64,000 bases of DNA, taken from positions 1 through 64,000 of the forward strand of contig JAJDDN010000007.1 in NCBI GenBank assembly GCA_029260295.1, given 5' to 3'. The position numbers and the translations under genes are program-made. Every line of letters begins with the position of its first letter. Positions within the stretch are counted from its first letter, which is position 1. The notes beneath the pieces are model-generated. The model saw only the letters and a list, made by a program, of their open reading frames with translations. It searched no databases and was not told the DNA's origin. Of the stretch, positions 3,914 to 37,897 are shown piece by piece. Source of the stretch: Phycisphaerales bacterium (GTDB taxonomy: Bacteria; Planctomycetota; Phycisphaerae; Phycisphaerales; UBA1924).

Positions 3914-3933
3914 GAGCCCTCAATGGGAGAGGG
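3914..3933 (+). repeat. Deleted copy of the DUF559-element end repeat
   Basis: The sequence GAGCCCTCA joined to ATGGGAGAGGG matches the copy at 31677-31717 except that 21 internal bases are missing, removing one arm of its hairpin. The purine-rich lead-in resembles that of the other copy. Confidence 0.6.
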
Positions 3934-3983
3934 AGGAAGAGCACGCCTAGCTCAGGGTGCAGAAAGGTTGATAAGAACCCGAA

Positions 3984-31569: not shown

Positions 31570-31585
31570 GAAAGACCCCCTCCGT

Positions 31586-31626
31586 CCGCGAAGACGCGGC
31601 CACCTCCCCCGTCAGGACGGGGGAGG
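31586..31626 (+). repeat. Two adjacent perfect hairpins in a repeat block
   Basis: CCGCG-AAGA-CGCGG (31586-31599) and an 11-bp stem at 31603-31626 (arms CCTCCCCCGTC and GACGGGGGAGG, loop AG). The block 31573-31725, purine-rich between its hairpins, has no gene and also holds the DUF559-type end repeat at 31677. Confidence 0.65.
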
Positions 31627-31676: not shown

Positions 31677-31717
31677 GAGCCCTCACCCCGGCCCTCTCCC
31701 ATCAGAATGGGAGAGGG
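31677..31717 (+). repeat. Solo copy of the DUF559-element end repeat
   Basis: GAGCCCTCACCCCGGCCCTC-TCCC followed by a different loop (ATCAGAAT) and GGGAGAGGG. It matches the right end of the 37368-37876 element except in the loop. It lies immediately downstream of the rluA stop in the minus direction, with no endonuclease gene nearby. Confidence 0.7.
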
Positions 31718-35032: not shown

Positions 35033-36004
35033 ATGAGTGATACAGAAACAAACTTGCGGGCGAGCGTGCGGACGCTGATGGGCGGGCTGATTGATTACGC
35101 GGGGTTGTTCCCGCCCAGCAAGCTTGAGATGGGCAAGGCGACGGAGAACTACGCAAAGTACCTTCGCGCCCAGCATGCAGACTTTGTGGGTCGGTTTATC
35201 TGCCCGGCATCGAGGCTTGAAGAAATGTCTAAGGCGGCTTCGATTGTGATGCCTGGGACCTACGCGACCAGCGGGTATCCGGAGCATCTTGATGACATCG
35301 AGCCTTGGCAGATCTCGGCGATCATTATGGGGGATCTGGAAGAGAATCTGGAGATGATTTATAGGTTCAACGAGCATCATGATGACGAGGCCAACGGGCT
35401 GGCGATGGTTGATGCGATCGAGATGCGGGTGTCGAGCAGCGATGATATTGATGAGGCGCTTGAGATTATCCCGGAGATGATTGATGCGGCGTTCGAGATC
35501 CCTCAGGATGTGATTATGAATGGTGATCCGCGGGGATTGATCGCGGCGATGTCTGGGGCGGGAGTCCTGGCCAAGATGCGGTGCGGGGGTGTTGAGGCGA
35601 GCATGTTCCCGAGCTGCGAGAATATTGCTGATTTCATGATGGCGTGCAAGAATGCTTCGGTGATGTTCAAATGTACTGCGGGGTTGCATCATCCGATCCG
35701 CGGGGAGCATGCGTTGACTTATGACGAGAATCCGCCTCGGGGTGTGATGCATGGGTTTATCAATGTGTATGTCGCGGCGGCGTATGTGCTTTGTGCCAAG
35801 AAACCAGATTTCGGGACGGCTGTTGGGATTCTTGAGGAGATGGATCCCAAGGCGTTTAAGTTCAACGAGGACGGCGTGATCCACAAGCGGACGCGGGTCT
35901 CGACGATCGAGCTTGGGCAGATGCGTGAGGGGTTTGCGATGGGGTATGGGAGCTGCTCGGTTGATGAGCCTGTGGCGGATTTGACTGCGATGGGTCTGCT
36001 TTGA
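35033..36004 (+). CDS. Conserved-looking protein of unknown function
   Basis: No family recognised with confidence. The 323-residue cytosolic product has no signal or membrane helix. A probable TIM-barrel-like series is suggested by the repeating strand-helix pattern ('GLFPPSKLEMGKATENY', 'RFICPASRLEEM', 'VMFKCTAGLHHPIRGEHAL'). The motif F-K-x-T-A-G-L-H-H-P looks catalytic: a Lys, two His and an Arg. It is translationally coupled to the MFS gene (TTG start overlapping its stop) and lies before fumarylacetoacetase, so a role in aromatic or organic-acid breakdown is conceivable. This is inference from position only. Confidence 0.7.
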   Translation: MSDTETNLRASVRTLMGGLIDYAGLFPPSKLEMGKATENYAKYLRAQHADFVGRFICPASRLEEMSKAASIVMPGTYATSGYPEHLDDIEPWQISAIIMGDLEENLEMIYRFNEHHDDEANGLAMVDAIEMRVSSSDDIDEALEIIPEMIDAAFEIPQDVIMNGDPRGLIAAMSGAGVLAKMRCGGVEASMFPSCENIADFMMACKNASVMFKCTAGLHHPIRGEHALTYDENPPRGVMHGFINVYVAAAYVLCAKKPDFGTAVGILEEMDPKAFKFNEDGVIHKRTRVSTIELGQMREGFAMGYGSCSVDEPVADLTAMGLL

Positions 36005-37347
36005 GCGATACCAAATCTCGGGCATCCCGGTTTTTTTATGGCTGGGTGATGCTTGGGGTTGCTGTGCTGATGGCGATGGCGACGATGCCATCGCAGACGG
36101 TGCTGGTGTCGCTTTTTAATGTGTCGTTTCGTGAGAAGCTTGGGCTGAGTGTGGCGCAGTTGAGCTTGGCGTACACGGTTGGGACGATTATCGCGGCGTT
36201 TCCGTTGTCGTGGATTGGGAAGGCGGCCGACCGGTTTGGGATCCGGGCTGTTGCGCTTTTTGTGACGGTTGCGTATTCGCTTTCGTTGATGGTTCTGCAT
36301 GAAGCTATCGGGATTGTGACGCTGGGGATTGGGTTCTTCTTTATTCGGTTCTTGGGGCAGGGGTCGCTGGGGATGCTGAGTGGTCACACGATTGCGATGT
36401 GGTTTGAACGGAAGCTCGGGTTTGCGCATTCGGTGCTTGCTGTTGGCGGGTTTGCATTGGGGTCTGCGATTCTTCCCAAACCTGTCGCGTGGATGATCGG
36501 GGAGTATGGGCCGGCGCGGACGATGATGTTTTTGGGGGTTGGGGTTGCGGTGGCGTTGTTGCCTTTGATTGTGTTTGTGTTTCGGAACTCGCCTGAGGCG
36601 ATCGGGCAGCATCTTGATGGAGATTCAAAGGAACACTCGACTCATGATGTCGCTCATGGCGGGTCGGCTCCGGCTGGTGATCCCGCGTTTAGTCTTGCTC
36701 AGACACGGCGGACCGGGGCGTTCTGGATTCTGCTGACGCTCTCGTGTACCTCTGGGTGTATCGGGACGGCGTTGTTGTTTCATATGCAGGAGATGATCCG
36801 GGTTGGCGGGGGCGAGGGGACGGCCAGTGAGGCGGCGGGGGCGAATCAGATGTGGGCGATCAGCTTTGGGCTCGGGATGCTGTGTACCGGATGGATGGCC
36901 GACAAGTTCCGGCCTCGGGTGTTGCTGCCGATCGCGCCGGTGATGATGATGCTGGGGAGTTTGGTGTGCTGGTATGGGGCGACGGGGCGGTCTGATGATG
37001 TGGTGATGACCATGAAGATCGGGATGCTGCTCTATGGGCTTGGGATGGCGGTGTCGGTGGCGGTGGGATCGCCGGCGATTGCCCGGTTCTTTGGGCGGAC
37101 GCACCACGGGGCGATCCGCGGGTTTATGACGAGCTTCGGGGTCGCGGCGACGGGGCTTGCGCCGTTTCTTGCTGGGGGCTGGTATGAGCTTGCGGGGGAT
37201 GACTTTGGTCCGGTGTTGATTGCGTTTGTGGCGTGGTGTGTGCCGTTGGTTGTGATGACGGCTATGCTCAAGAAACCTTCGCCGCCGGCGGATCGGGACC
37301 TGAATCCTGAGCCTGATCCGGTGGATATGCATGAGGTTGAGTTGTAG
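36001..37347 (+). CDS. Major facilitator superfamily transporter
   Basis: A 448-residue carrier with about 12 membrane helices and a central polar loop around 'DGDSKEHSTHDVAHGGSAPA'. The family signature G-x-x-x-D-R-x-G appears as 'SWIGKAADRFGIR' after helix 2. The N-terminus 'FFYGWVMLGVAVLMAMATMP' resembles oxalate/formate or monocarboxylate carriers of this superfamily. The TTG start overlaps the stop of the preceding unknown gene by 3 nt. The substrate cannot be fixed; a carboxylate fits the neighbouring fumarylacetoacetase. Confidence 0.92.
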   Translation: MSDTKSRASRFFYGWVMLGVAVLMAMATMPSQTVLVSLFNVSFREKLGLSVAQLSLAYTVGTIIAAFPLSWIGKAADRFGIRAVALFVTVAYSLSLMVLHEAIGIVTLGIGFFFIRFLGQGSLGMLSGHTIAMWFERKLGFAHSVLAVGGFALGSAILPKPVAWMIGEYGPARTMMFLGVGVAVALLPLIVFVFRNSPEAIGQHLDGDSKEHSTHDVAHGGSAPAGDPAFSLAQTRRTGAFWILLTLSCTSGCIGTALLFHMQEMIRVGGGEGTASEAAGANQMWAISFGLGMLCTGWMADKFRPRVLLPIAPVMMMLGSLVCWYGATGRSDDVVMTMKIGMLLYGLGMAVSVAVGSPAIARFFGRTHHGAIRGFMTSFGVAATGLAPFLAGGWYELAGDDFGPVLIAFVAWCVPLVVMTAMLKKPSPPADRDLNPEPDPVDMHEVEL

Positions 37348-37367
37348 GGTTCTTGTCTTATCTTGCC

Positions 37368-37403
37368 CCCTCTCCCTCGGGGAGAGGGCTGGGGTGAGGG
37401 CTC
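37368..37403 (+). repeat. Left inverted end of the DUF559 unit
   Basis: Reads CCCTCTCCCTCGGGGAGAGG then G-CTGGGGTGAGGG-CTC. Its reverse complement matches 37841-37876 except for one T-to-C difference. Confidence 0.8.
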
Positions 37404-37435
37404 TTGGCCTCCAACTCTCCTATCCTCAATTACTC

Positions 37436-37831
37436 ATGCCCTATCCAAACGAGCCAACCTATCCGACCCAGCGAGCGATGGATAACTCTGCGAAGCTCCG
37501 CGCTGATACAACTCCCCCAGAACAAGTCCTTTGGGCACACCTAAAGAATCGGCGGCTAGGCAGTTTCAAGTTTCGCCGACAACACCCGATTGGATCGTTT
37601 GTAGCAGATTTCTATTGTGATGAGGTAAAATTGGTTGTTGAACTGGATAGCTCATACCACTCAGGCAGACAAAAACAAGATGCAGAGCGGGACGATTGGA
37701 TGAATTCGCAAAGTATTGCTGTATTACGCGTCACTGCGTCCCAGCTTGCGAAGAATAAGGATGGTGTGTTGTCGGAAATACTTCTGACAGCACAGGATCT
37801 TCTTCAAGATCGAGAGATGGAGAAGAGGTAG
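37436..37831 (+). CDS. DUF559 endonuclease-fold protein
   Basis: A 131-residue Vsr-like/restriction-endonuclease-fold protein. It has the DUF559 pattern 'TPPEQVLWAHLKNRRLGSFK', 'FRRQHPIGSFVADFYC', and Asp58 with the Glu69-Leu-Asp71 pair in 'KLVVELDSSYH', which fit a metal-binding nuclease site. DUF559 proteins are predicted nucleases of unknown role. The ATG at 37436 is chosen because an upstream extension would translate the inverted repeat. Codon use lacks the G-rich third positions of its neighbours, which suggests an acquired gene. It may act in moving the 509-bp unit or in repair; neither is shown. Confidence 0.87.
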   Translation: MPYPNEPTYPTQRAMDNSAKLRADTTPPEQVLWAHLKNRRLGSFKFRRQHPIGSFVADFYCDEVKLVVELDSSYHSGRQKQDAERDDWMNSQSIAVLRVTASQLAKNKDGVLSEILLTAQDLLQDREMEKR

Positions 37832-37840
37832 GAAGACAGG

Positions 37841-37876
37841 GAGCCCTCACCCCGGCCCTCTCCCCGAGGGAGAGGG
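37841..37876 (-). repeat. Right inverted end of the DUF559 unit
   Basis: Begins GAGCCCTCACCCCGGCCCTC and ends AGAGGGAGAGGG-like; it is the inverted partner of 37368-37403 (35 of 36). Confidence 0.8.
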
Positions 37877-37897
37877 AGGAAGAAAGGATTATTTAGT

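Follow-up and report, generated by a model that had tools for sequence, protein, structure and literature searches.

Why a single small nuclease gene should stand between two almost perfect inverted repeats, and how gene and repeats belong together, is the question raised by a 509-bp unit at positions 37368–37876 of a stretch of Phycisphaerales bacterium DNA (GenBank assembly GCA_029260295.1, contig JAJDDN010000007.1, positions 1 to 64,000; the whole 64,000 nucleotides are referred to as the window). A first-pass annotation had read this unit, which contains one Vsr-like DUF559 gene, as a minimal element moved or maintained by a nuclease. We lean towards a REPtron-like locus, in which the DUF559 gene lies between inverted cognate repeats that the nuclease would copy or move in trans. 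The association of the gene with its repeat families extends to place, orientation and clade; genomes with a strong DUF559 tend to have more copies of the repeat; and at an orthologous site the gene and its ends are missing together. The parts of the unit are as follows.

37368..37403, + strand (the strand of the G-rich tail): left end, a repeat of the triplex motif (TM)/BoxC type, from sequence comparison and folding
37368–37388 and following, within the left end: hairpin with 9-bp arms and loop TCG, then linker CT and tail GGGGTGAGGG at 37391–37400, facing the gene
37436..37831, + strand: DUF559 (PF04480) gene of the Vsr-related nuclease family, 131 aa from the ATG at 37436
37841..37876, − strand: right end, an inverted TM/BoxC-type repeat with linker CC and a loop identical to that of the left end

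The left end and the reverse complement of the right end agree at 35 of 36 positions, the sole difference being T/C in the linker, and folding of both ends as single-stranded DNA gives a 9-bp stem CCCTCTCCC/GGGAGAGGG closed by a 3-nt loop, so that both the inverted ends around one DUF559 gene and the hairpin in each, as first annotated, are borne out. Stem stability is modest (z of −1.28 and −1.85), so repetition rather than stability is the unusual property of these ends: CCCTCACCCNNNCCCTCTCCC, with at most 2 mismatches, has 3 matches in the window vs a mean of 0.02 in 100 shuffles. The G+C content is 48.5% between the ends vs 56.4% for the whole window. A known structured RNA was rejected as an explanation, as Rfam matches are sub-threshold only (whalefall-1, mir-320). 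The whalefall-1 scores of the ends are 19.4 bits (37843–37878) and 17.3 bits (37366–37401) with a cut-off of 37, and a comparison of this RNA family with the DNA repeats may be worthwhile.

The ends are the known BoxC/PIT/intrastrand triplex motif (Holder 2015). The first-pass annotation knew of no formal description; the repeats themselves are described under the names BoxC, PIT and TM (PMC4666352, PMC2267715). The TM, formerly BoxC or PIT, consists of a hairpin, a linker and a tail as in the window ends (PMC4666352); compared with Table 1 of that paper, the CCCTCTCCC-loop-GGGAGAGGG hairpin, short linker and GGGTGAGGG tail are exact at both ends and at a solo copy at 31680, and the window shares its linker types with T or CC. 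The same source lists 23 copies in E. coli MG1655, with five inverted pairs that each combine a type A and a type B linker, and reports instability around TM sites and intrastrand triplex formation in vitro by E. coli oligonucleotides; it mentions the possibility of a G-quadruplex, finds no mobility functions such as transposase remnants in the gene contexts it considers, and calls the mechanism unclear (PMC4666352). Its main text, as distinct from the supplements, which lay outside the search, contains no word starting with "DUF", "endonuclease" or "ycj". Number 9 in Holder's list of TMs (1,351,204–1,351,239) lies about 170 bp from ycjD (1,351,407–1,351,760), a DUF559 gene. BoxC/TM and DUF559 are each known separately, and what is new is the link between them: a search of the open literature, with supplements, preprints and subscription journals outside its reach, found no paper linking DUF559 or YcjD to repeats, and none in which DUF559 and "inverted repeat" occur together. 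The terms looked for in the RepRanger paper (PMC12306157) gave no hit.

The link rests first on position. In a scan of species genomes the best 80 of 496 relatives were used, so the sample consists of genes similar to the window DUF559. A TM-like repeat (at most 3 mismatches) lies within 500 bp of 44 of these 80 genes, and an exact TM within 300 bp of 26. Exact TMs that face the gene number 31 in 15.8 kb (1.96/kb) at 0–100 bp; their density falls to 0.46/kb at 100–200 bp, 0.13/kb at 200–400 bp, 0.10/kb at 400–800 bp and 0.02/kb at 800–1200 bp, and a single copy is found in 111 kb (0.01/kb) at 1200–2000 bp, giving a density within 100 bp about 200-fold that beyond 1.2 kb. Outward-facing exact TMs peak at 100–200 bp (0.78/kb). 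Further motif families of the same architecture, designated H, B, X and Z, extend the pattern: all families together reach 4.50/kb near DUF559 genes vs 0.02/kb far from them, and loose patterns (up to 2 mismatches) find at least one family's motif no more than 300 bp from 91/103 genes and inward-facing motifs on both sides of 59/103, although these patterns were partly read off the same 103 flanks, so that independence belongs only to the figures for TM alone.

When the flanks of 106 DUF559 genes were searched without a preset motif, strong inverted pairs of other sequences emerged as well. The inverted-repeat medians were 47.5 observed, 20 across loci and 22 in the mirrored control; only the medians and the resulting list are used, the threshold having been spoilt by N-masked flanks. 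The weak loci L127–L130 and L140 (no tblastn match) were excluded before this search and the masked loci L117, L126 and L139 after it, which reduced the 106 genes to 103. Among the weak, mostly multidomain-type matches L226–L231, only L228 and L229 gave printed flanks (BLAST), with no motif by eye. Patterns read backwards gave 0 matches in the set formed by the own genome and its relatives, 0 in the H-pattern set and 1 in one of the 41 TM-pattern genomes; at 3 mismatches this control says nothing, since the sites of the forward pattern can then be matched by the reversed one too. Chance or base composition was rejected on the near absence of backwards matches and the decay of inward TM density with distance (1.96 to 0.10 and then 0.01/kb). 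A regulatory element of the DUF559 gene alone was likewise rejected, as it leaves the dispersed copies and the clade-specific families unexplained. The pairing recurs across phyla.

Every family is built from a hairpin, a linker that is either a few bases long or itself a small hairpin, and a tail of purines whose sequence mirrors the 3′ hairpin arm, often with T in place of one A. The arm/tail pairs are GGGAGAGGG/GGGTGAGGG in the window, GGGGGAAGG/GGATGGGGG in Hydrogenophaga (family H) and GGGGGAGG/GGAGGGGG in Phycisphaerae family B. Over 171 flanks, the match between tail and mirrored own arm is 0.788, vs a mean of 0.714 and a maximum of 0.734 when permuted between loci (300 permutations), while the direct arm/tail match is 0.726 and the outward side gives 0.606. 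For the 151 flanks with asymmetric arms the corresponding values are 0.783 for the own mirror, 0.712 direct and at most 0.722 permuted. The linker hairpin of family B varies freely in sequence and is still a hairpin in many listed copies (by eye). An intrastrand triplex of the purine motif follows just such an arm/tail mirror rule. A four-run G-quadruplex pattern is likewise matched by the purine half; the mirror in asymmetric arms speaks for the triplex rule, with a quadruplex as a less favoured candidate.

Motif families are distributed over the DUF559 tree far from randomly. With 103 proteins and 115 columns, and many forks unresolved, motif family changes 22 times on this tree vs 52.6 times when shuffled, and none of 200 shuffles is as low. 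Of the 21 B-labelled genes, which come from Planctomycetota, Pseudomonadota and others, 20 fall in one part of the tree (support 88, not starred), and the two DUF559 genes of the window's own genome, which belong to different clades, bear different ends, TM and B. The motif family thus tends to differ from one DUF559 clade to another, while the architecture stays the same. A strict H pattern was found in 7/7 genomes with matching own ends (7–41 copies, nearly all in one genus) and in 1/45 other genomes (G045, 3 copies), with 0 copies in the H-labelled G065, whose ends are shorter. The TM pattern occurs in 31 of 41 genomes, including 17/17 picked for TM ends. Among the genes L221–L225, which come from the family of G061 (Hydrogenophaga) and share a downstream gene, four species carry H repeats and one (L223) a TM-like repeat (by eye), which suggests that the motif changed in an orthologous unit.

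Repeat copy number follows the presence of the gene. Sixty genomes were drawn evenly from the family to which G047, the Kluyvera genome with L049, belongs, and a strong DUF559 was defined by E < 1e-15; weak matches were scored as being without the gene, namely G008, G019, G034 and G039 (4/19) among the relatives of the own genome, G121 and G123 (2/9) in the family of G047 and 12/21 in the family of G061. At least 10 TMs are present in 7/7 strong-DUF559 genomes of this enterobacterial sample vs 1/53 others (Fisher p = 2e-8, a value that, like those below, overstates independence because the genomes are related). The seven hold 87, 17, 40, 48, 31, 33 and 10 TMs, one of them (G109) with its gene in two pieces; the 53 others hold 66 (G100), 3, 2, 1 and 1, and 48 have 0. 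Restricting the sample to the 35 genomes of at least 3 Mb gives a Fisher p of 1.2e-6. Among the own genome and 40 relatives, at least 30 TM and B copies are found in 9/15 genomes with a strong DUF559 vs 1/26 others (p = 1.2e-4), the exception being G008, which has 53 such copies and a weak domain match only. In 60 genomes from the family of G061, at least 3 H copies occur in 5/9 strong-DUF559 genomes vs 1/51 others (p = 1.3e-4). The strong genes that are H-flanked by eye, in G061, G145, G160 and G175, accompany 41, 13, 3 and 58 H copies (4/4 with at least 3), while G144, G157, G183, G185 and G189, with other hairpin-tail repeats beside the gene (by eye), have 0, 0, 0, 6 and 0. Two degraded enterobacterial genes were also seen. 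L204/L207 are the two pieces of the G109 gene, with an inward TM core ending 12 nt past the match, and this genome keeps 31 TMs; L205 is a DUF559 remnant in G123, with an inward TM core ending 23 nt past the match, and this genome has 3 TMs.

The window's own genome (G000, 2.9 Mb) contains 40 copies of the pattern CCCTCACCCN{1,6}CCCTCTCCC and 0 of the same pattern read backwards. Repeat copies also lie in the window outside the unit.

31680..31717, − strand: TM copy standing alone, with loop ATCAGAAT, which is more frequent than any other loop in the printed solo copies
3914..3940, − strand: TM copy standing alone and degraded, a 21-base deletion having removed tail, linker and one arm
31577..31609, − strand: copy of the family B repeat, the family found beside the other DUF559 gene, L002

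The first two are the solo ends of the first-pass annotation, one with a different loop and given there at 31677, the other starting at 3914 with its deletion as described. In reverse complement, loop ATCAGAAT is the loop of both unit ends in the congener G001. The B copy lies about 70 bp from the solo TM, so that two repeat families occur within one stretch. L002 is the second DUF559 gene of this genome (contig 3, 126327–126641), belongs to clade B and is flanked left and right by repeats of family B; its nearest relative, in G015, sits between the same neighbours.

Orthologous sites were compared in 12 genomes of the genus that contain the fumarylacetoacetase-like gene. A DUF559 unit stands in front of this gene in 3/12 (G000, G001 and G007): the G000 unit follows a major facilitator superfamily (MFS) gene, the G001 unit, with 69% identity and the same ends, follows another gene, and G007 has a clade B unit with B ends in the same intergenic region. 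The MFS gene is separated from the fumarylacetoacetase-like gene by only 38 bp in G006 and 24 bp in G004, whose whole genomes lack DUF559 and TM. An MFS homologue precedes the gene in G003, another window gene in G010 and other neighbours in five genomes, with no unit in the 330 bp printed. The MFS transporter gene (36001–37347 in the window) is missing at the site in the unit-bearing G001 and G007 and present in the unit-free G004 and G006. Gene and both ends are therefore jointly absent in two congeners, which is the comparison the first-pass annotation had proposed; the two outcomes it had named as fatal, ends present regardless of the gene and a gene and ends that never travel together, did not occur, as pairing recurs across phyla and the absence at the orthologous site is joint.

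Both unit ends have loop TCG in G000 and ATTCTGAT in G001, and a loop common to both ends is found in 15/47 units outside family H vs a mean of 1.67 and a maximum of 7 in 1000 permutations; the two hairpins of one unit are homogenised. Among E. coli strains, E70 and XJ6-3 lack the TM pair of the hrpB–mrcB interval and UTME-14 retains a single hairpin of it; at lldD–trmL an empty allele occurs beside several with partial deletions. Two multi-copy genomes were examined: the five copies of G014 and the four of G015 have a mutual identity of at most 66%, so the several near-identical copies per genome of a classical insertion sequence are not seen there, and the own genome's two genes differ in clade. 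Units share neighbours between species, on one side in G000/G001 and on both sides in G000/G015. Given the diverged copies and the neighbours shared by L002 and its G015 relative, whole units seem to move rarely, and it seems to be mainly the repeats that disperse. Close pairs of repeats in G175 are oriented like the DUF559 unit in 19/19 cases, combine different linkers and have a spacing of 53–93 bp. Pair orientation, tails outward or inward, is uniform within each of G100, G108 and G175, bar one same-strand pair. The idea, drawn from G175, that close pairs are the unit minus its gene was dropped for their opposite orientation in G100 and G108.

The enzyme itself belongs to a nuclease family. 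The window protein matches PF04480 with an E value of 2.4e-33 (114.7 bits vs a curated Pfam cut-off of 20.6), its only Pfam match at E ≤ 0.001, and no match to the RAYT (REP-associated tyrosine transposase, REP being repetitive extragenic palindromic sequence) was obtained. The first in-frame ATG, at 37331, lies outside the left end, and the likely start inside the unit is 37436. Across 53 aligned sequences, the window one included, R22, E29, W33, F46, R47, Q49, F59, C61, E69, D71, H75, D82, R85 and R98 are invariant and D58 is kept in at least 90%; E69, D71, H75 and D82 with D58 are conserved acidic and histidine residues of a predicted catalytic type. Profile relatives of DUF559 are 3hrl "Endonuclease-Like Protein" (6e-36) and, weakly, 3r3p "Mobile intron protein" (2e-4), which we take to be the Vsr-like homing enzyme I-Bth0305I. 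A YcjD profile finds Vsr at 1e-5, which relates the family to Vsr (PMC1189080). An anti-phage defence gene was rejected, as the window protein matches 0 PADLOC families at E ≤ 0.01; the L002 protein has four weak partial PADLOC matches, the best being DpdF (1.4e-5) and Vsr (8e-4).

Gene and inverted ends thus belong together, as the first-pass annotation had held, given their recurrence across phyla and their joint absence; what looks doubtful is free jumping, given the low identity between copies, the sites shared across species and the one-sided enterobacterial motifs. A resident nuclease gene whose cognate repeats disperse in trans, as in REP/RAYT, appears to be the better reading. In the REP/RAYT system (REPtron) and its REP doublets forming hairpins (REPINs), as the cited papers describe them, an enzyme gene likewise stands between two inverted palindromic repeats that are dispersed intergenically, also as inverted doublets, the repeat family matches the enzyme clade, and several diverged enzymes may occur per genome (PMC2817692, PMC3116915). 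Excisions of REPINs have been detected by deep sequencing (PMC3116915). The window unit likewise has an enzyme gene flanked by two inverted repeats that are also dispersed genome-wide, and both-side inward motifs in 59/103 related genes agree with this. The enzymes differ, the RAYT being a tyrosine transposase related to IS200/IS605 and DUF559 a family of nucleases related to Vsr; the GT(A/G)G head that PMC2817692 describes for REP is missing beside the palindrome in the unit ends, which have instead a purine tail mirroring the arm; and the inward DUF559 motif can be one-sided, as in enterobacteria. The unit works like REP/RAYT, yet is not a member, having neither a RAYT nor a GT(A/G)G head. 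Relative to BoxC/PIT/TM_ECO, which the main text of PMC4666352 describes without an enzyme, the repeats are here tied to DUF559, and families H, B, X and Z are added. Vsr-like homing endonucleases (3r3p) share the profile similarity and the small single-domain protein, and differ in that the unit contains no intron or interrupted host gene and dispersed repeats replace a homing site. As in miniature inverted-repeat transposable elements, short non-coding doublets share the ends of a coding unit, but the unit has no DDE transposase, and no target-site duplication is seen at the compared sites.

On the REPtron-like reading, the DUF559 nuclease may recognise the structured end in single-stranded DNA, such as that of the lagging strand, and may nick next to it. 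Single repeats or inverted pairs would then be copied or moved in trans to further intergenic sites by repair or strand transfer; occasionally the whole unit would move, and its two ends would become homogenised along the way. Several observations weigh against this reading. Twelve of 103 DUF559 genes have no motif at all; eight enterobacterial genes or remnants (L198–L205) have the inward motif downstream only, with TM cores ending 11–66 nt past the match, no inward TM in the upstream part of the locus, and sapF and fabI both missing from the vicinity; at the Cedecea gene (L041) the flanking motifs face outward on either side; and at ycjD of E. coli K-12 the near copy is degenerate (by eye), TM number 9 being the one about 170 bp off. 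The TM pattern is also found in 14/24 genomes not picked for TM ends, including all 7 strict-H genomes (3–31 copies), where further DUF559 genes were only partly examined. Two of the 15 strong-DUF559 relatives, G027 and G033, have neither TM nor B, and their genes carry family Z; the 6 H copies of G185 accompany a strong gene without H flanks; G155, in which no DUF559 was detected, likewise has 6 H copies; and G100 (4.7 Mb) combines 66 TMs with no DUF559 match, for which recent loss, an assembly gap or another enzyme are candidate causes. Close pairs are oriented opposite to the unit in 10/10 cases in G100 and 5/6 in G108, and no target-site duplication is visible in G000 vs G004/G006 or at two E. 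coli sites, the flanks having diverged. The relatedness of the genomes behind the p-values belongs here too, as does the status of nuclease activity, which is only a prediction for every DUF559 protein considered.

Of the competing explanations, a homing-like process survives best and is nevertheless unlikely. DUF559 would break DNA at the repeat or at repeat-free sites, and homologous repair would convert and spread repeats without true transposition. The profile match to 3r3p (E 2e-4), the homogenised unit ends, as expected of conversion, and the one-sided inward motif at enterobacterial genes are in its favour, whereas the solo copies printed from the own genome stand in flanks that differ beyond a short extension of the repeat, unlike simple homing, and close pairs within one genome have a narrow spacing (53–93 bp in G175). 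We find it improbable that DUF559 is a domesticated processing nuclease, a host repair enzyme that trims the hairpin or triplex of repeats that arise otherwise and gather as regulators or by selection. TM-site instability and the lack of mobility genes nearby, as reported in PMC4666352, the deletion alleles at E. coli BoxC sites and the 66 TMs of G100 would agree with such an enzyme, but clade-own motif families, a copy number that tracks the gene and nearest motifs that mostly face it are left unexplained. An autonomous minimal transposon, the whole 509-bp unit jumping with the nuclease as transposase, is very improbable, since the inverted ends, the joint absence in G004/G006 and the presence in G007, at this intergenic region, of a unit whose clade and ends are different are outweighed by copies at most 66% identical in G014 (five) and G015 (four), shared neighbours in G000/G001 (one side) and G000/G015 (both) and enterobacterial loci where just one flank has an inward motif.

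The REPtron-like reading suggests that DUF559 may be the missing partner enzyme of the BoxC "triplex" repeats. With a partner enzyme, a repeat that has lacked an explanation would become open to experiment, and the laboratory strain E. coli K-12 has both parts, ycjD and 23 TMs. The link would give a function to a DUF family found in many phyla and would mean that evolution has independently solved the task of REP/RAYT a second time. A bolder proposal, which we put forward tentatively and do not count as probable, is that DUF559 proteins are the dispersal enzymes of intrastrand-triplex repeats, a Vsr-type nuclease family that reads a folded, single-stranded end of hairpin plus third strand and spreads it in a transposition-like process without HUH, DDE, serine or tyrosine recombinase chemistry. 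The mirror covariation of arm and tail makes an in vivo role of DNA triplexes directly testable and, if that proposal is true, would be evolutionary evidence of in vivo selection for a DNA triplex.
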